Shown here: positions 6 through 10,645 of the stretch, piece by piece
Position numbering within the stretch: the first letter of the stretch is position 1
How the letters are laid out: every line of letters begins with the position of its first letter
Assembly: GCA_030697085.1 (NCBI GenBank)
Contig: JAUYQT010000694.1
Span: 1-11,076 of the forward strand
Source of the DNA: Azonexus sp.
Lineage (GTDB): Bacteria; Pseudomonadota; Gammaproteobacteria; Burkholderiales; Rhodocyclaceae
Direction of reading: 5' to 3'
DNA length: 11,076 nt
Notes under the pieces: generated by a model
Seen by the model: only the letters and a program-made list of their open reading frames with translations
What the model was told of the DNA's origin: nothing
The model's database searches: none
Position numbers and translations under genes: made by a program

Positions 6-650
6 ATGCCCGAGCGCGAAAATAATAGCCTGACTTTCAAGCTGGTCTATTACGGGCCGGCGCAGAGCGGCAAAACTACCAATCTGCTGCGTCTGCATGA
101 TCTGCTTTTGCCTGAACTCAAGGGCGAGCTGATGACGATGGAAACGAAGGATGACCGGACCTTGTTTTTCGATCTGTTACCGCTGGGTTTTCGCGCCCCT
201 TCTGGTCTCTTGATCAAGTTTCGCCTGTTTACCGTGCCGGGGCAGGTCGCCCATGACGGCACGCGCAAGGCGGTTTTGTCGCGGGCGGACGGCATCGTTT
301 TTGTCGCCGATTCATGTCGTTCACAAGAAACCAATAATGCCGAATCTTTCCAGAGCCTGGCAGAAAACTGCCATCGTGTTGGTCTGGATTTCGAACATTT
401 GCCCCTCGTTGTTCAGTTCAACAAACGCGATTTATCGACCGCCGTGCCGGAGGCCGAAATTCGCGAGCGTTGGTCGGCCGCACCCTGGCCGCTGGTTTTT
501 GCCGTGGCGCTCAACGGCCAGGGCGTCGAGGCCAGTTTTGAGGCCTTGTTGCGTGCCTTGTATCGCCACCATGTTGATGTTCTGGCGTTGGCTGCGGTCC
601 ACGGCCTGAATGAGGCAAATTTTGTCGCCGGGGCGCTCGGGCGGCGATGA
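6..650 (+). CDS. MglA-like small Ras-family GTPase
   Basis: Predicted cytosolic GTP-binding switch protein of 214 residues. The P-loop GPAQSGKTT is at residues 17-25. A switch-I-like stretch DDRTLFFDLLP lies at 49-59, and its R51 matches the catalytic-finger arginine position known in MglA proteins. The switch II motif is TVPGQ (76-80) instead of the usual DxxG; this TxPGQ form is the hallmark of the bacterial MglA subgroup. NKRD (139-142) gives guanine specificity. Family members set cell polarity and the activity of type IV pilus motors in gliding and twitching bacteria, usually with a Roadblock (MglB) GAP. No MglB is seen here, but only 5 bases precede the start, so one could lie upstream. 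The stop overlaps the kinase start as ATGA, so the two are probably translationally coupled. The upstream edge is cut, so an earlier start cannot be fully excluded, but the length suits the family. Confidence 0.9.
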   Translation: MPERENNSLTFKLVYYGPAQSGKTTNLLRLHDLLLPELKGELMTMETKDDRTLFFDLLPLGFRAPSGLLIKFRLFTVPGQVAHDGTRKAVLSRADGIVFVADSCRSQETNNAESFQSLAENCHRVGLDFEHLPLVVQFNKRDLSTAVPEAEIRERWSAAPWPLVFAVALNGQGVEASFEALLRALYRHHVDVLALAAVHGLNEANFVAGALGRR

Positions 651-1855
651 GTGATTTCGCCTTCGATCACGAGTGGCATCTCGGCGAACTGCTTGATGCC
701 ACGGCGCTGGCCCGGCTTGGCCCGGCCTTGAGCCAATTATTGCCAGCAGATCTGGCGATTCTGGATTTCGACGAGCGATTGCTGTGGGGCGTGCTCGCCC
801 CGAATGCCCGGCGCCAGCCTTTGGTGCTGGAGCTTGAAGCGATTGGTTTTGTCGCCAGTGCGGCCGCCAGCCCACCGGTGCTGGACAGTTTGGCTCAACT
901 GCTGACCACTTTGCTGCGCGCCGAGTTGCGCTTCAAAATGGCCTCGACGCTGCACCTTGCCGCGGTAGCTGAGGATTTTGAATCGCTGAAACGCGAGCAT
1001 GCCCGGCTGCTTGAATCTGAAATGCGTTACCGCAAGCTTTCCGAAGAGCTGGAAGCTCGTGTCAAGACGCAGGTGGCGCAGTTGGAAGAACGCCAGCAAA
1101 TGCTCTATGAGGCTGAAAAACTCGCCTCGGTCGGCCAGCTCGCGGCCGGTATGGCGCATGAAATCAATAATCCGCTCGGTTTTGTCCGCAGCAACCTGAG
1201 CACTTTCAAAATCTATCTGGCTCAATTTTCCCAACTCAAGGCCCGGTTGGCTGAAGGCAATGCGGCCTGGGCGGCGCTTGATCTCGATTTTACGCTCGAG
1301 GATGGCGTCGATCTGCTCGCCGAGAGCGCCAAAGGGATCGACCGGATTGCCCGTATCGTTAGTGATTTAAAGGGCTTTTCCAACGTTGACCGCGCCACTG
1401 AGGAATTTGCCGATATCAACACCTGTTTGCGCCATGCCGTCAGCGTGATCGAAGGTCAGTTACCGCCGGGCATCAGCCTCAAACTCGATCTTTTACCCTT
1501 GCCCAACCTGGTTTGCCTGCCGGGGCATTTGAATCAGCTTTTCTTCAATATTTTGCAGAATGGCGTGCAGGCGATTCAGGATGCCGGGCGGCCTGGCGTG
1601 GTTCGCATCAGTAGCGCGGCCGATGATGCCGGGATAACGGTGCAGATTCATGATGACGGGATCGGCATGGGGGCAGCGCAGCGCGAGAAGGCTTTTCAGC
1701 CTTTCTACACGACTCGCGCCGTTGGCGCGGGTGCCGGTTTGGGGCTGTCGACGGCGCACAATATCGTGCTGGCGCACAGTGGCCGTATCGAAATTGACAG
1801 TCAGCCGGATGTCGGCACGACGCTAAGTATTTTTTTCCCGATTCCCCATGGCTGA
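647..1855 (+). CDS. Soluble sensor histidine kinase, orthodox HisKA/HATPase type
   Basis: A 402-residue two-component kinase. Residues 1-110 form an N-terminal region I do not recognise, which may be the sensor. Residues 110-158 are strongly charged and heptad-like, a likely coiled-coil signalling helix. The H box AAGMAHEINNPLGF carries the phosphoacceptor H171. The ATPase domain has an N box (NILQNGVQAI, N301 and N305), G1 (DDGIG, 336-340), an F box (FQPFYTT, 350-356) and G2 (GAGLGLS, 362-368). All catalytic motifs look intact. No membrane segment or signal peptide is visible, so it should sense an internal cue or a protein partner. It has no receiver domain of its own. Its natural target is the receiver-ATPase fusion encoded next, whose start codon overlaps the end of this gene by 8 nt. 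The start overlaps the GTPase stop by 4 nt. The kinase assignment is very safe; the pairing is inferred from context. Confidence 0.94.
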   Translation: MSDFAFDHEWHLGELLDATALARLGPALSQLLPADLAILDFDERLLWGVLAPNARRQPLVLELEAIGFVASAAASPPVLDSLAQLLTTLLRAELRFKMASTLHLAAVAEDFESLKREHARLLESEMRYRKLSEELEARVKTQVAQLEERQQMLYEAEKLASVGQLAAGMAHEINNPLGFVRSNLSTFKIYLAQFSQLKARLAEGNAAWAALDLDFTLEDGVDLLAESAKGIDRIARIVSDLKGFSNVDRATEEFADINTCLRHAVSVIEGQLPPGISLKLDLLPLPNLVCLPGHLNQLFFNILQNGVQAIQDAGRPGVVRISSAADDAGITVQIHDDGIGMGAAQREKAFQPFYTTRAVGAGAGLGLSTAHNIVLAHSGRIEIDSQPDVGTTLSIFFPIPHG

Positions 1856-4088
1856 TTACGCCAGCCTGTTCACCGGTAAAACCGCTGCACCGCAAGCGCC
1901 GGCGACGCATTTGACGCCGCCGAAGTATCGCCTGCTGCTGGTCGATGATGAGTTGGGTATCGTCAAGGCACTGACCCGTGTTTTCCGCCAGGAGAATTAC
2001 GAGGTGATGATCGCCGCCAGCGGTAAGGAGGGGCTGGAACGCCTGGCTGAGGGGCCGGTGCATCTGGTGATCAGCGATTTCATGATGCCCGGCATGAACG
2101 GCGCGCAGTTTCTGCATGAGGTGAAGCTGCGCTCGCCGGAAACCATCCGCATCATGCTGACCGGGCAGGCCAATACTGATGCGGTGATGGGGGCGATTAA
2201 CGAAGGCGCGGTCTATAAGTTCATTCTCAAACCGTGGAACGATGACGATCTGCGCGTCACTGTGGCGCTGGCGCTGGAGCAGTTCGATCTGATCGCCCGC
2301 AACAAGGTGCTGAAAACTGAAAATGCCCAGAAGGCGAAGGAAATTTCGGCGCTCTCAAAGCTGGCGGCAACGCATCGCAGTCGCCTCGGCATCATGCTGC
2401 ACAAGAAAAATCTGCTCTCGTCCGCCCAGTTGCAAGAGCTGAGTCTGCTTCAGGAGCGCCGCAAGGAGCCGCTGATTGCGCTGCTGCTGGAAAAAGACTG
2501 GGTTAATGAGCGACACATCCGTGATCTGCTGAAGAAGGACATGCTGATCGAGGAGGTGCAGTTGCCGGAGTTTCGCGTCGATCCGGTGTTGGCCGAATTG
2601 ATCCCGCACAGCTTTTGCCAGCGTCAGCTGGTCGTGCCGCTCAAACTCGACGGCAAGCGGTTGCTGCTCTGCATGGCCGACCCGCTTGATGAGGGTTTGA
2701 TTGACGAAGTGCGTTTCACTGCCGGCCTCGACCTGAATGTCGTGACTGCCAACATCGAGGCGATCCGCAAAAAAATTGATGAAATTTATGGCACTGGTAA
2801 TGTCGATTTCAAGGAGCTGGAAAGTATTGTTGGCTCACCCGACCCTTATGAAGGGATCGAGATTGTCATTGAAGATGACGACATCACCCGGCTTGAAGAT
2901 TTGCTGCGCGATACCGAGTCGCCACCCGCGATCCGTATTGCCAACGCGATCATCGTTGAGGCCATTCGGCTAGGCGCTTCGGATATTCATATTCAGCCGC
3001 GGACAAAAAGTGTGGTGGTGCGCTACCGGATCGATGGCGTATTGATCGACAAAATCCATATTCCGCACCAGATGCACCAGTCGCTGGTTTCGCGCTTGAA
3101 GATCATGTCGGAGCTTGATATTTCCGAGCGCCGTCGGCCGCAGGATGGGCGGATTACGGTGAAAACGCCGATGCGGATGGTCGATCTGCGCATTTCCACC
3201 TTGCCGACGATCAATGGTGAAAAAGTCGTCATGCGGATTCTTGACCGTAATTCGGCAGTGCATGGCCTCGACAAGCTGGGTTTTTCGCCATTTGATCTGG
3301 CCCGCGTTAACGACATGGTGGCGCGGCCACAAGGCATCATTCTGGCTACCGGGCCGACCGGCAGCGGTAAGACAACAACGTTGTATTCGCTGTTGCAGCA
3401 CGACGCGACGCCGGAAAAAAATTACGTCACGATCGAAGATCCGGTCGAGTATTACCTCGATATGGCCGGTCAGGTGCTGGTCCGCGAGAAAATTGGCCTG
3501 ACTTTCCCGAATATTCTGCGCGCCCTGTTGCGGCAGGACCCGGATGTCGTGCTGCTCGGCGAAATCCGTGATTTTGAAACGGCCGAGGTCGCCTTTCATG
3601 CGGCGCTGACGGGGCACCTGGTCTACTCAACCTTGCACACCAATTCGGCGATTGCCACCATTGCCCGCCTGTTCGACCTGGGCTTGAAGCCATATGTCGT
3701 GGCGACGGCGTTGGAGGGCATTATTGCCCAGCGTCTTGTTCGCCAGGTTTGCCCGCTTTGTCGTGAAGAAGTTGCGGTCGATAAGGTCTTGCGTGATCGT
3801 TTGGGTCGCGCTTTTGCCCCGATTGAGCGCGTCTACCGCGGCAAAGGTTGCAGCAATTGTCAGGGCAGTGGCTATAAAGGGCGGGTCGGGTTGTATGAAG
3901 TTTTGACTCTGGATGACGAGTTGCGTGACCGTATCGGCGGCGGCGCCAGCGTGCTCGAAATTCGCAAGGCGGTGCGCCAAAAAGGATTGCGCGGCATTGC
4001 CCATCACAGTGTTGAAAGAGTTCAGGCGGGGGCGACCAGCCTGGAAGAAATATTGAGAGTGCTCGGACCTCAGGCCGGCGAGGATTGA
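1848..4088 (+). CDS. Response-regulator receiver fused to PilB/GspE-type assembly ATPase
   Basis: A 746-residue fusion. Residues 27-145 are a CheY-like receiver with acidic pair D33/D34, phosphoacceptor D77 (ISDFMMPG), T105 and K128 (LKPW). A charged helical linker (about 150-175) follows. An N-terminal GspE/MshEN-like domain (about 176-310) comes next, then a full type II/IV secretion ATPase. That ATPase has Walker A GPTGSGKT (502-509), an Asp box (VTIEDPVEY, 527-535), Walker B (PDVVLLGEIRD, 565-575), a His box (LTGHLVYSTLHTN, 587-599) and a tetracysteine zinc site C635/C638/C668/C671. PilB proteins are usually about 565 residues, so the receiver accounts for the extra length. Such ATPases are cytosolic hexamers that drive pilus or pseudopilus polymerisation. 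No ribosome binding site precedes the ATG, and the gene starts inside the kinase gene, so coupled translation is likely. No pilin or platform gene is in the window, so whether it serves a type IV pilus, MSHA pilus or type II secretion is unresolved. Confidence 0.93.
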   Translation: MADYASLFTGKTAAPQAPATHLTPPKYRLLLVDDELGIVKALTRVFRQENYEVMIAASGKEGLERLAEGPVHLVISDFMMPGMNGAQFLHEVKLRSPETIRIMLTGQANTDAVMGAINEGAVYKFILKPWNDDDLRVTVALALEQFDLIARNKVLKTENAQKAKEISALSKLAATHRSRLGIMLHKKNLLSSAQLQELSLLQERRKEPLIALLLEKDWVNERHIRDLLKKDMLIEEVQLPEFRVDPVLAELIPHSFCQRQLVVPLKLDGKRLLLCMADPLDEGLIDEVRFTAGLDLNVVTANIEAIRKKIDEIYGTGNVDFKELESIVGSPDPYEGIEIVIEDDDITRLEDLLRDTESPPAIRIANAIIVEAIRLGASDIHIQPRTKSVVVRYRIDGVLIDKIHIPHQMHQSLVSRLKIMSELDISERRRPQDGRITVKTPMRMVDLRISTLPTINGEKVVMRILDRNSAVHGLDKLGFSPFDLARVNDMVARPQGIILATGPTGSGKTTTLYSLLQHDATPEKNYVTIEDPVEYYLDMAGQVLVREKIGLTFPNILRALLRQDPDVVLLGEIRDFETAEVAFHAALTGHLVYSTLHTNSAIATIARLFDLGLKPYVVATALEGIIAQRLVRQVCPLCREEVAVDKVLRDRLGRAFAPIERVYRGKGCSNCQGSGYKGRVGLYEVLTLDDELRDRIGGGASVLEIRKAVRQKGLRGIAHHSVERVQAGATSLEEILRVLGPQAGED

Positions 4089-4137
4089 AAATCGACGCGT
4101 TTGTCTGGAGCTGGTTTTTCAGCCTGATGCCACCGCC

Positions 4138-5286
4138 TTAAAGACCCAGAAAATCACCAACTTCTGTCGATTGAGCCATTGTGTCGGCATAGCCGAGATC
4201 GATCAGTGCCCGTGTATAAGGCTTTTCAAAGAGTAGATAGCTGGTCAGCGCCCCACCGCGGCGGTTCATTGCACCAACGCCGCTGAGCATGAGTTTGATC
4301 GCCCAGGGCAGGGCGGTGGCATGTTCGGCGGCAATCCGGTCGAGACGCTCGGAGGGGGCGATGATCAGGGTTTTGATCGGACGCAGGGGAATTGTCGACT
4401 GCGCGCGAATCTCGGGTGGAATCGAGGATAGCGTCTGATTTATCCGCTGCATGCGTTCGATGTCGACTTCCAGGCTATCAAGAAAAATGCTGGAAAGTGC
4501 ATGGCCGGCGATTTGCGCCAGCGAGGGGTGGGATTCGACCCTTTGCCGCTCAAGATGCTCGTTTTTTCGACTGCTACCCACGATCAGTACCCGTTCGGCA
4601 CCGAGGTGAATGGCCGGCGAGATGGGTGCCAGCTGGCGCATTGAGCCATCGCCAAAATATTCGCGGTGAATGCGGGCCGGTGGAAAAACGAAGGGAATGG
4701 CGCTCGAGGCGAGCAGGTGCGGCACGGCGATTTTTGAACGGATGCCGATGCGTTGGACACGTCGCCAAGGGTGGGCGGAGGCGTGGCCCTGAAAAAAGCT
4801 GATGCTTTCTCCCGACTCATAACCGGATGCGGTAATGCTCACCGCGTGCAGGGCACCTTTGGCAATGGAGCGTTCAATGCCGCTGAAATCGAGATTCCGG
4901 GTTAATAAGTCGCCCAGTGGCGAGTTATCGAGCAGCGAACGAGGCGGGTTGCGAATGAGCCAGCCGGCGACCAGTAGCGATAGCCAGCGGGCACCCGATG
5001 CGCCAATGCCCATGGGGTCGGCGCGGTAGATGTCGCCAGCATGCATGTTGCGCCAGACGCCAGCCAGAATGGATACCGCCTTGCCAAAATTGTCGGCCAG
5101 GCAAGCAATGCCGGCCGCATTGATGGCGCCGGCCGAGGTGCCGCAGAGAATGGGGAACGGGTTGCGGCGCCGGTCGCTGGAGAGTTTGGCAACGGCCAGC
5201 AGGAAGCCGACCTGATAGGCGGCACGGGCGCCGCCACCGGTCAGGATGAGTGCAGTTCGCAGGTTTGTCGGGGAAGCGTTAGTCAC
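4138..5286 (-). CDS. Patatin-like phospholipase family protein
   Basis: A 382-residue predicted serine acyl hydrolase of the patatin fold, acting on phospholipid or acyl-ester bonds through a Ser-Asp dyad. The oxyanion-hole motif GGGARAAY is at residues 17-24. The nucleophile elbow GTSAG (49-53) gives S51. The catalytic aspartate is D213 in FGDGS, where most relatives have DGG or DGA. No signal peptide is visible. The C-terminal 100 residues go beyond the core domain and are not recognised. The start is GTG; there is no purine-rich ribosome binding site in front of it, but a short ORF with a strong one overlaps it (see 5279-5356), so coupled translation may set expression. A well-formed promoter lies at 5407-5435. 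The gene converges on the receiver-ATPase gene with a 49-bp gap in which I see no strong terminator. The family call is firm; the substrate is unknown. Confidence 0.9.
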   Translation of the reverse strand: MTNASPTNLRTALILTGGGARAAYQVGFLLAVAKLSSDRRRNPFPILCGTSAGAINAAGIACLADNFGKAVSILAGVWRNMHAGDIYRADPMGIGASGARWLSLLVAGWLIRNPPRSLLDNSPLGDLLTRNLDFSGIERSIAKGALHAVSITASGYESGESISFFQGHASAHPWRRVQRIGIRSKIAVPHLLASSAIPFVFPPARIHREYFGDGSMRQLAPISPAIHLGAERVLIVGSSRKNEHLERQRVESHPSLAQIAGHALSSIFLDSLEVDIERMQRINQTLSSIPPEIRAQSTIPLRPIKTLIIAPSERLDRIAAEHATALPWAIKLMLSGVGAMNRRGGALTSYLLFEKPYTRALIDLGYADTMAQSTEVGDFLGL

Positions 5287-6826: not shown

Positions 6827-7132
6827 TCAGGCCGCTTTTTTGGCGTGGCTGCGTGCTGACTTCTTCAGAGACTTGAACAGTTCCGGTTCCTGCGACTTCA
6901 GATAGTCGACCACATCCCAGTCTTCGCGCTTGATTGCCTTGATGTCGATCTGCTCAACGTGCACCAGACGCAACAATTCGCGTACCGGCTTCGGCATGTT
7001 ACGACCACTTTCGTAACGTGAGCCACCGCTCTGGGTAACGCCCAGAGTGGACCAGAATTGCTGCTGATTGAGGCCAAGCTTGCGACGAATTTCGCGAGCG
7101 TCAATTTTTTCGATGGTTTTGACTGCGGTCAT
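6827..7132 (-). CDS. Small XRE-like helix-turn-helix DNA-binding protein
   Basis: A 101-residue predicted transcriptional regulator. The HTH lies at about residues 20-45 (LGLNQQQFWSTLGVTQSGGS), with the following RYESGR typical of Xre/Cro recognition-helix ends. The C-terminus is Lys/Ala-rich (KKSARSHAKKAA), suggesting non-specific nucleic-acid contact. The ATG has a strong ribosome binding site, GGAGAAGG, 4 nt upstream. HigA-type antitoxins have a similar size and fold, but no recognisable RelE/HigB-type toxin neighbours it; a possible 53-codon ORF upstream overlaps its start (7129-7290). It converges with the radical SAM gene across the 30-bp palindrome. AT-rich DNA upstream could hold its own operator. 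The target genes are unknown. Confidence 0.82.
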   Translation of the reverse strand: MTAVKTIEKIDAREIRRKLGLNQQQFWSTLGVTQSGGSRYESGRNMPKPVRELLRLVHVEQIDIKAIKREDWDVVDYLKSQEPELFKSLKKSARSHAKKAA

Positions 7133-9155: not shown

Positions 9156-9422
9156 ATGCAAATTGAACATCACGATCTTCACCATGAGTTCCCGGATATG
9201 AGTGACGCTATTCAGTCACTAAAAACAGGTAATGCTCATTTTTCCAAGCTGTTGGCCAGCTATCATCGCCTGACCGGAAGCGTTGAGAGCCTCGAAGAGC
9301 ACGACATGCCGGTGGCTGATTTCACGCTCGAAGATATGAAAAAACAGCGTGTCAAATTAAAGGATGAGCTCTACCACATGCTGCTCGCTTTTCGCTCCGG
9401 CCAGCAGACCGCCAAGGCTTAA
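9156..9422 (+). CDS. DUF465 / YdcH family small protein
   Basis: An 88-residue helical, highly charged protein of the DUF465 family. The typical opening EHHDLHHEFPD and the ending KKQRVKLKDELYHMLLAF are clear. The middle segment (HFSKLLASYHRLTGSVESLE) suits a two-helix coiled-coil hairpin. The frame stays open far upstream into aroC, but the start is fixed at 9156 by GGGAG (9144-9148) at 7 nt and by the family N-terminus. The function of the family is not established. It is 52 bp after aroC and could share its transcript. The stop is followed by a GC-rich hairpin that covers the start of the next gene. Confidence 0.9.
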   Translation: MQIEHHDLHHEFPDMSDAIQSLKTGNAHFSKLLASYHRLTGSVESLEEHDMPVADFTLEDMKKQRVKLKDELYHMLLAFRSGQQTAKA

Positions 9423-9442: not shown

Positions 9443-9468
9443 TGCATCCGGTAAAATTGCCGGATGCA
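9443..9468 (+). promoter_or_regulatory. Hairpin covering the MFS start codon
   Basis: A 9-bp perfect stem, TGCATCCGG (9443-9451) with CCGGATGCA (9460-9468), and an AT-rich 8-nt loop that can close further by two A-T pairs and a T-G pair. The transporter ATG (9464-9466) lies in the descending arm. No T tract follows, so it is not a standard terminator. It would hide the start codon when folded. Confidence 0.45.
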
Positions 9469-10645
9469 TGCTTTGCCTTACTGGCGCCTTTCGGGCTATT
9501 ACTTTTTTTACTTCGCCTTCATTGGCGCCTTTTCGCCCTACTTTGGGCTCTATCTCCAATCCCTGAATTTTTCCGCCTGGGACATCGGCTTGCTGATGTC
9601 GCAGATGCAGTTGATGCGTCTGTTCGGCCCTAACTTGTGGGGCTGGCTGGCCGATCGCTTCGGGCGGCGAATGCTGATCATTCGTCTGGCGGCAGTCATT
9701 AGTCTGGCCGGCTTCAGTGCTTTTTTCTGGCTCGATAAATTGCCCGGCATGTTGCTCGCAATGGCCTTGCTCGCTTTCTTCTGGAGCGCCGCGCTGCCGC
9801 TGGTTGAAACACTGACTTTCGATCATCTGCGTGATGAGCGCGGTCGCTACAGTCGAATACGGCTGTGGGGTTCAATCGGTTTTATTGTTGCGGTGATGCT
9901 CACCGGGGCATTGCTTGATATCGCGCCGCCGGTCGGTGTTGTCTGGGTTTGTTGGGGAATTCTGCTCGGCATCCTGGCGCTTGCCATCGTCGTGCCGGAA
10001 GCGCCGCTGGTCGCTCATTCCGATACAGATCAGTCGATCGGTGAAATTCTGCGGCAACCGCGCGTTCGGGCGCTCATGGCCGCCTGTTTTGCGATGTCGG
10101 CCGCGCATGGCGCTTTTTATGTTTTCTATTCAATTCACTTGGCCGAGCATGGCTATAGCAAAACCCAGGTTGGTAGCCTGTGGTCATTAGGTGTGCTGGC
10201 TGAAATTGTGGTCTTCATGCTGATGGCGCGTCTTTCCGTGCGTTTTTCGTTGCGGCTCATTCTGCTCGCCAGCTTTGCTGCAGCAGTTTTACGTTTTTTG
10301 CTGATGGGCTGGGGTGTCGAGTCGGTGGTCATTATGGTGTTGGTGCAACTGATGCATGGCCTGACCTTTGGCGCCTATCACGCCTCCGCAATTGCCGCGG
10401 TCAACGAGTGGTTTCCAGGGCGGGCGCAGGGACGTGGTCAGGCTTTGTATTCCAGCCTTTCGTTCGGGGCGGGCGGCTTGCTTGGTGCATTGATCAGCGG
10501 CTACACCTGGGAATCACTGGGGGCGGGTTGGACCTTTACGCTCAGCGCAGTCTTTGCAGTGATCGGCTTCTGGCTGGTTTGGGGTTGGGTGGGCAAGAAT
10601 GCAGCGACGATAGAAACAACGGCTGGCCCCGCGATCATAGAATAA
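9464..10645 (+). CDS. MFS transporter, HcaT-like (MFS_1_like) family
   Basis: A 393-residue inner-membrane protein with about 12 hydrophobic segments, of the major facilitator superfamily. Motif A, GWLADRFGRR, is at residues 60-69 in the loop after the second segment. The N-terminal PYWRLSGYYFFYFAFIGAFS and the overall length match the group containing the E. coli 3-phenylpropionate transporter HcaT, often annotated as a PPP-family or nucleoside-type symporter. The substrate cannot be told from the sequence. The start is limited by an in-frame TAA at 9452, and ATG 9464 gives the expected N-terminus, yet no ribosome binding site precedes it and the codon sits in a hairpin. It lies 41 bp after the DUF465 gene. 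Export or import of an aromatic acid would fit the aroC neighbour, but that is a guess. Confidence 0.88.
   Translation: MHALPYWRLSGYYFFYFAFIGAFSPYFGLYLQSLNFSAWDIGLLMSQMQLMRLFGPNLWGWLADRFGRRMLIIRLAAVISLAGFSAFFWLDKLPGMLLAMALLAFFWSAALPLVETLTFDHLRDERGRYSRIRLWGSIGFIVAVMLTGALLDIAPPVGVVWVCWGILLGILALAIVVPEAPLVAHSDTDQSIGEILRQPRVRALMAACFAMSAAHGAFYVFYSIHLAEHGYSKTQVGSLWSLGVLAEIVVFMLMARLSVRFSLRLILLASFAAAVLRFLLMGWGVESVVIMVLVQLMHGLTFGAYHASAIAAVNEWFPGRAQGRGQALYSSLSFGAGGLLGALISGYTWESLGAGWTFTLSAVFAVIGFWLVWGWVGKNAATIETTAGPAIIE

Follow-up and report, generated by a model that had tools for sequence, protein, structure and literature searches.

The 11,076-nucleotide contig JAUYQT010000694.1 of an Azonexus sp. genome (assembly GCA_030697085.1, 868 contigs) was analyzed over its whole length (C729, hereafter the window). 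It begins only 5 bases ahead of the first gene of an overlapping trio, which encodes an MglA-type small GTPase, a soluble histidine kinase, and an ATPase carrying an N-terminal receiver, an MshEN domain and a T2SSE domain (Table 1). Genome comparisons make the module well established as a unit. We read it, with a probability of about 0.5, as a signaling operon with a type IV pilus-type motor as its output, in which a phosphorylation-controlled PilB paralog, accompanied by an MglA without MglB, would act in trans on the type IVa pilus (T4aP). The first-pass annotation, made from the DNA letters, had proposed these genes, overlaps and identities; the open reading frame (ORF) list returns the same coordinates and junctions, and Pfam, NCBIfam and PDB comparisons bear out the assignments.

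Conservation of the trio and its genomic setting

The strongest evidence for the unit comes from a two-query search of 149 related genomes, using the ATPase N-terminus (E < 1e-100) and the GTPase (E up to 1e-8). Both queries return an identical set of 42 genomes, the remaining 107 containing neither at these limits, and in all 42 the two genes lie on the same contig and strand with starts 1840-1968 bases apart. Within the set, G001 has an N-terminal match limited to residues 1-231; the next best genome beyond it, G136 (2e-49), matches over residues 194-346 only, which does not cover the receiver. In an even phylum sample, queried with the ATPase and not the GTPase, the receiver-ATPase occurs in 4 of 398 genomes (E up to 1e-60), the window's own genome included. 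Given the identical 42-genome sets and this low count, the trio is patchy but inseparable among the genomes tested. Named strains that carry it belong to Dechloromonas, Azonexus, Zoogloea and Marinobacter. Over 69 loci, pairwise distances of the three proteins correlate with r 0.947-0.971, which fits co-inheritance, although shared phylogeny can produce such values by itself.

Gene order was followed in an ATPase-based scan of species genomes that gave 154 stretches; retaining the best 80 yielded 79 loci. Seventy-two of these, each with at least 4 kb upstream, are usable and make 73 places together with the window. Left out were three loci that are too short (L063, L064, L068), three fragments without gene calls (L072, L100, L109), and L116, a Halobacillus stretch ruled out as a trio locus, its ATPase being unrelated. 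The order GTPase-kinase-ATPase on one strand is kept in 72 of the 73 places, mostly in Beta- and Gammaproteobacteria; the exception, L084, has its GTPase on the opposite strand. At the GTPase/kinase junction the two genes overlap or abut in 58 of 72 places, and at the kinase/ATPase junction they do so in 36 of 73. Genes in the loci were called from codon usage, a procedure that errs at times (the chorismate synthase in the window, for example, is shortened). Because the order count is conditional on the ATPase, the two-query test is the stronger of the two; together they confirm the expectation that relatives keep the trio as a compact, conserved unit.

Genomic neighborhood analysis reveals that, in most relatives, the trio ends a larger signaling operon composed of kinases, a receiver-HD-GYP protein, a small receiver protein and then the trio, often beside a GGDEF-EAL protein. 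Upstream, the receiver-HD-GYP gene is present in at least 51 and the small receiver gene in at least 54 of the 73 places (lower bounds at the score limits used), with a median spacing of -4 bases between the two (47 pairs) and of 8 bases between the small receiver and the GTPase (54 pairs). In both loci that were scanned (L039, from Dechloromonas hankyongensis, and L077), more kinases and a GGDEF-EAL protein flank the module; the two families reappear in 59 and 49 loci, respectively. Three loci (L096, L097 and L105) instead have these genes (kinase, receiver-HD-GYP, small receiver) downstream of the trio and in the opposite orientation, which shows that rearrangement of the module is possible with the trio intact. 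The earlier description of 'one compact device' is therefore right about the unit and understates its extent, since the trio is usually part of a larger signaling operon. A Roadblock (MglB) gene, which had been suggested as something to look for upstream, is found directly upstream in none of the relatives; the small receiver gene commonly occupies that place.

Since the contig begins 5 bases before the GTPase, the upstream part of the operon was out of view of the first-pass annotation. Another contig of the same assembly (C297; L117) ends within a receiver-HD-GYP homolog (3-1310), ahead of which lies a 1176-residue ORF, outside the domain scan, at the place of the sensor kinase of relatives. 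This contig is probably the window's missing upstream neighbor, the small receiver gene having been lost in the gap. The small receiver protein (e.g., L039:7574-8146) consists of a receiver and a tail, and the consensus PGITxVxWxxDGSVLLD ends most members; this tail is a candidate motif for contact with the GTPase or the kinase. Its receiver and that of the ATPase belong to one subfamily (hhalign probability 100, 37% identity), so that, on this likeness, the two may share a kinase.

The 22 most recurrent neighbor clusters were sampled by Pfam scans of 15, the other seven occurring in at most 6 loci each. The scanned clusters comprise kinases, receivers, GGDEF-EAL, GGDEF, HD, MCP and CBS proteins, MatE and EamA transporters, an esterase, an aldehyde dehydrogenase and DUF6901 proteins. 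A DUF6901 protein lies near the ATPase in five loci, L068:3079-3762 and four Pseudomonas-type loci. No pilus or secretion component appears among the 15 scanned clusters, and so the motor would act in trans, as had been proposed. The accompanying remark that the window lacks a pilus structural gene also stands, with none among the nine ORFs in the Pfam scan (9464-10645, 10734 to the end and 9156-9422 lie outside that scan). Directly behind the ATPase, the window has a patatin-like phospholipase gene (4138-5286, minus strand) convergent toward it, with no terminator-like site found in 3900-4400; at that place D. hankyongensis has a hemerythrin-PAS-kinase gene, 3 bases past the ATPase. Further on, a small protein (6827-7132, minus strand) contains an RsaL-like helix-turn-helix domain (PF22495).

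Active sites and predicted control

The GTPase has a Pfam Arf match of 29.4 bits, and all four PDB sequences that it matches at E up to 0.001 are named MglA (best E 2.3e-42). It fits the group 1 MglA definition of PMC4316618 (here and below, papers are cited from excerpts of their text), namely a GxxxxGK[T/S] P-loop, an Arg beside the G2 Thr, TVPGQ and [NT]KxD. The P-loop Gly, Lys and Thr, Arg51, TVPGQ and NKxD are unchanged in 49 of 49 aligned GTPases. It departs from the glycine expected at position 21 of a cycling MglA: the place of Myxococcus MglA Gly21, as located in the alignment with PDB sequences, is taken by Ala19, and Ala stands there in all 49 aligned rows, in 120 of the 120 best database relatives and at 73 of 73 loci. 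For Bdellovibrio MglA, which has Ser at this position, a permanently GTP-bound protein was inferred (Milner et al. 2014, PMC3983030), and Ala or Ser is reported there in five of nine species without MglB (PMC3983030). Roadblock/MglB (PF03259) was detected in 0 of the 42 trio genomes and in 9 of 149 overall, eight of them over the cut-off, in a search that could miss a very divergent Roadblock; the chance of zero overlap with the trio is ∼0.046, descent ignored. Because of the alanine and the missing Roadblock match, a GTP-locked protein appears more likely than a cycling switch, and the idea that GTP state is one of the device's two inputs loses ground accordingly.

The kinase possesses the phospho-acceptor His, N box, G boxes and DHp/CA fold of two-component histidine kinases. 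His171 is constant in 63 of 63 kinases, as are most of the nucleotide-binding positions examined. The nearest kinase model among the matches listed, T2SS_HK (NF038348), reaches 184.4 bits against a cut-off of 450.

The ATPase retains both a receiver and a motor active site. Asp33, Asp77, Thr105 and Lys128 are present in 55 of 55 aligned ATPases and Asp34 in 54, which supplies the acidic pair, phospho-acceptor Asp, Thr/Ser and Lys of a response regulator receiver; Asp77, already singled out as the phosphotransfer site, is the conserved receiver Asp. Walker A Lys508, Glu572, His590, His597 and the four zinc Cys are likewise constant (55/55). Across 107 called receiver-ATPases, the Walker A pattern is found in all, and so is the phospho-acceptor Asp, 97 times by pattern and 10 times by eye (a strict pattern for this stretch matched 59 of 107, a looser one 97). 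The residues examined for phosphotransfer and ATPase action are thus conserved in kinase and motor alike, in support of the earlier reading. We judge a phosphorylation-gated motor likely.

The MshEN domain has diverged. Where the two-motif c-di-GMP (cyclic di-GMP) receptor carries RLGxx...LxxxLxxQ twice, 24 residues each, motif I is partly kept in the 55 aligned ATPases; in motif II the Gly is gone and the Gln changed to Asp or Glu in all 55, and the Arg is replaced (Pro in 49/55). The domain thus falls outside the two-motif receptor definition. XpsE lost c-di-GMP binding by changes at several of these motif positions (PMC5013675), and the same paper mentions MshEN associated with receivers. 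With the second motif degraded, direct c-di-GMP control of this ATPase seems unlikely, though c-di-GMP enzymes surround its gene.

Taken as a mechanism, the module would work as follows. Sensor kinases would pass phosphate into related receivers, those of the receiver-HD-GYP protein, the small receiver protein and the receiver-ATPase. Phosphorylation of Asp77 would switch this ATPase, a PilB paralog, on or off, while the co-made GTPase, probably mostly in its GTP form, would be a polar or docking partner of the ATPase or the kinase and no cycling switch. As a putative hexamer, the ATPase would act in trans as a second, signal-gated extension motor, seated at the base of a machine whose genes lie outside the operon and which is most likely the T4aP (PilC), and the HD-GYP and GGDEF-EAL proteins would meanwhile adjust c-di-GMP.

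Table 1. Genes, gene junctions, domains and sites of the trio (nucleotide positions in the window; residue positions in each protein).
Feature	Position	Strand	Basis
MglA-type small GTPase, 214 aa	6..650	+	ORF list; Pfam, PDB comparison, alignment
Soluble histidine kinase, 402 aa	647..1855	+	ORF list; HisKA + HATPase_c
Receiver-MshEN-T2SSE ATPase, 746 aa	1848..4088	+	ORF list; Pfam, NCBIfam, PDB comparison
GTPase/kinase overlap, 4 bases, ATGA	647..650	+	ORF list
Kinase/ATPase overlap, 8 bases	1848..1855	+	ORF list
GTPase motifs	P-loop 17-25; Ala19; Arg51-Thr52; TVPGQ 76-80; NKRD 139-142 (residues)		alignment
Kinase layout	mini-GAF-like ∼12-75; long helix 76-199; HisKA with His171; HATPase_c 293-400 (residues)		alignment, domain comparison
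ATPase domains	Response_reg 30-139; MshEN 237-316; T2SSE 357-737 (residues)		Pfam
ATPase sites	Asp77; degraded MshEN motifs 179-231; Walker A 501-509; Cys 635, 638, 668, 671 (residues)		alignment

The machine served by the ATPase and alternative readings

The window's own genome encodes a PilB over its cut-off (825 bits), followed by the apparent start of pilC. Further T2SSE genes occur on C514 and C282, with partial matches on C387, and gene order suggests that these are gspE, an MSHA- or type II secretion system (T2SS)-like ATPase, and pilT/pilU, respectively (MSHA, mannose-sensitive hemagglutinin). The C282 locus (L120) encodes a 568-residue T2SSE protein that differs from PilB, from GspE and from the trio ATPase, and then a platform-like ORF of 399 residues, outside the domain scan. 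More widely, the PilB equivalog is present in 40 of 41 trio-bearing genomes tested (drawn from the 79 loci, mostly Gammaproteobacteria, L084 included), the miss being a Sulfurisoma metagenome-assembled genome. In the phylum sample, PilB occurs in 152 of 398 genomes, including all 4 with the receiver-ATPase, a comparison that ignores descent. When the T2SSF proteins of five trio genomes were set against the MshG list, only PilC, and perhaps a broad GspF-like group, could be shared by every trio genome, which makes the T4aP, on present sequences, the likeliest target of the ATPase.

Several observations weigh against the T4aP-motor reading. Among close relatives, co-occurrence with the T4aP tells little, since this pilus is near universal there, and the scanned recurrent neighbors offer no pilus or secretion gene to tie the module to one. 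The ATPase does not reach the PilB equivalog TIGR02538 (546.1 bits against 675.65); it is similarly under the cut-offs of the GspE equivalog TIGR02533 (544 against 630.25) and of the curated TfpB model NF053534 (452.2 against 850). The catalytic pair Arg51 and Gln80 is retained in the GTPase, which speaks against a simply locked protein. Myxococcus MglA showed no two-hybrid contact with PilB in the excerpts of PMC7519303, and an SgmX-like adaptor was not searched for here. Finally, trio genomes carry an MSHA-like platform protein more often than other genomes of the genus, so another machine is possible in some species.

This last point leads to the alternatives. That the ATPase drives an MSHA-like pilus or a T2SS rather than the T4aP is unlikely, although it draws on real enrichment: MSHA-like MshG (E < 1e-100) is found within the genus in 25 of the 34 genomes with the trio and in 18 of the 42 without (Fisher p 0.010), and overall in 30 of 42 trio genomes, and at completeness ≥90% trio genomes hold more T2SSF proteins (4.04 against 3.25 per genome, p 0.0025). 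The surplus of T2SSE over T2SSF gives p 0.089 at the same completeness, with at most 12 T2SSE candidates scored per genome, a ceiling reached in 5 of the 26 trio genomes and in 1 of the 30 others. MSHA as an obligate target had been suggested by a count of 5/5 trio genomes against 0/6 others in a sample biased toward genomes with few T2SSF; it was dropped because MshG is missing at E < 1e-100 in 12 of 42 trio genomes, eight of which (G045, G046, G053, G067, G071, G084, G103 and G120) are 98-100% complete. Moreover, the five MSHA-like loci fetched from relatives (L184-L188) each own a 569-residue ATPase. The one of these that was scanned, from L184, exceeds the cut-off of NF053729 'MshE-related', a c-di-GMP motif model; no msh-named equivalog was found in an NCBIfam scan of nine proteins of these loci (six from L184, three from L188), and apart from the NF053729 match the MSHA-like label comes from gene order. 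An account in which the three genes are adjacent by chance, or through general clustering of signaling genes, is extremely improbable: the wider neighborhood is indeed full of kinases and c-di-GMP genes, but the shared 42 genomes, near-fixed spacing and order kept in 72 of 73 places already contradict it.

The remaining alternatives concern what the proteins do. The receiver-ATPase might be a regulator and not a motor, its hexamers competing with or joining PilB, or reporting the state of ATPase or pilus to the kinase. The company it keeps would suit such a role, as it comes with kinases and receivers and the scanned recurrent neighbors include no platform protein or pilin, and PilB itself has been described as a signaling protein in Myxococcus (PMC5544727). 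In a 21-row tree with several long branches, the 11 receiver-ATPase rows also group in a clade of their own (98/99 support), separate from the rows for PilB, GspE and MshE-like proteins. We nevertheless consider this role improbable, in that the catalytic residues examined and the zinc Cys are invariant (55/55), which would be needless for a passive decoy. In the other alternative the GTPase cycles after all, helped by a GTPase-activating protein or exchange factor of another fold, a part that the kinase's mini-GAF domain or the small receiver protein, with its coiled-coil tail, might play. Alanine at position 21 throughout the 120 best database relatives and the 73 loci makes this doubtful, as does the comparison of the kinase with the Roadblock/LC7 profile, where hhalign gives a probability of 0.3 (with only four rows on the Roadblock side). 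Returning to the phosphorylation-controlled T4aP motor, a more specific form of it is offered tentatively: the motor itself would be the response regulator, a PilB-type ATPase in which c-di-GMP sensing was traded for a receiver, docked by a GTP-locked MglA, with MglB replaced by the kinase (its mini-GAF) or the small receiver.

Comparison with known systems

No account of the trio or of a receiver-bearing PilB was found in the literature searched, including the excerpts of PMC4624772 and PMC11580455, a scope that leaves aside most subscription papers and preprints. The Myxococcus xanthus MglA/MglB/RomR module shares with the trio the group 1 signature (Arg finger, TVPGQ, NKxD) and the links to receivers and pilus motors. 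There, RomR is a receiver protein binding MglA (PMC3441718), and MglA-GTP promotes pili via SgmX, which is important for PilB placement (PMC7519303). The trio differs in that its 42 genomes are without detected MglB, position 21 is Ala, and the motor bears the receiver and sits in the operon, while Myxococcus mglA itself is described as not near its partner genes (PMC4316618). Bdellovibrio bacteriovorus MglA is like the trio GTPase in lacking an MglB and in having a non-Gly residue, Ser, at position 21 (PMC3983030); deleting it left the bacterium unable to enter prey and with reduced piliation (PMC3983030). Its partners are a TPR protein and RomR, and the excerpts describe no co-made kinase or ATPase (PMC3983030). 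In the trio operon, specific candidates for the role of MglA partner are the N-terminal domain of the kinase and the small receiver protein.

Streptomyces conservons (Cvn) likewise encode a histidine kinase and an MglA-family GTPase together (PMC4316618). They differ in having a group 2 GTPase, an MglB homolog and no response regulator, and no motor ATPase is among the four proteins named in the excerpts (PMC4316618). With MshE-type c-di-GMP ATPases, the trio ATPase shares the MshEN domain, the second 24-residue motif being lost in all 55 members aligned. With PilB and TfpB, the two extension ATPases of Acinetobacter baylyi (PMC11656802), it shares a full T2SSE motor; unlike them, it has an N-terminal receiver, scores below the PilB, GspE and TfpB cut-offs, and forms its own clade. 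The operon would thus unite receiver proteins, one receiver being fused to the motor, with an MglA that has no MglB and with a second extension ATPase. In the excerpts available, control of known pilus extension motors runs through adaptors (SgmX, FimX, PilZ) or through c-di-GMP, whereas here the phosphorylation input would lie within the motor chain. With the GTPase encoded beside the motor, MglA action without MglB and the purpose of a second PilB-like ATPase become directly testable. The trio thus hints at direct switching of a spare pilus motor through phosphorylation in some bacteria, beside a GTPase seemingly stuck in its active state.

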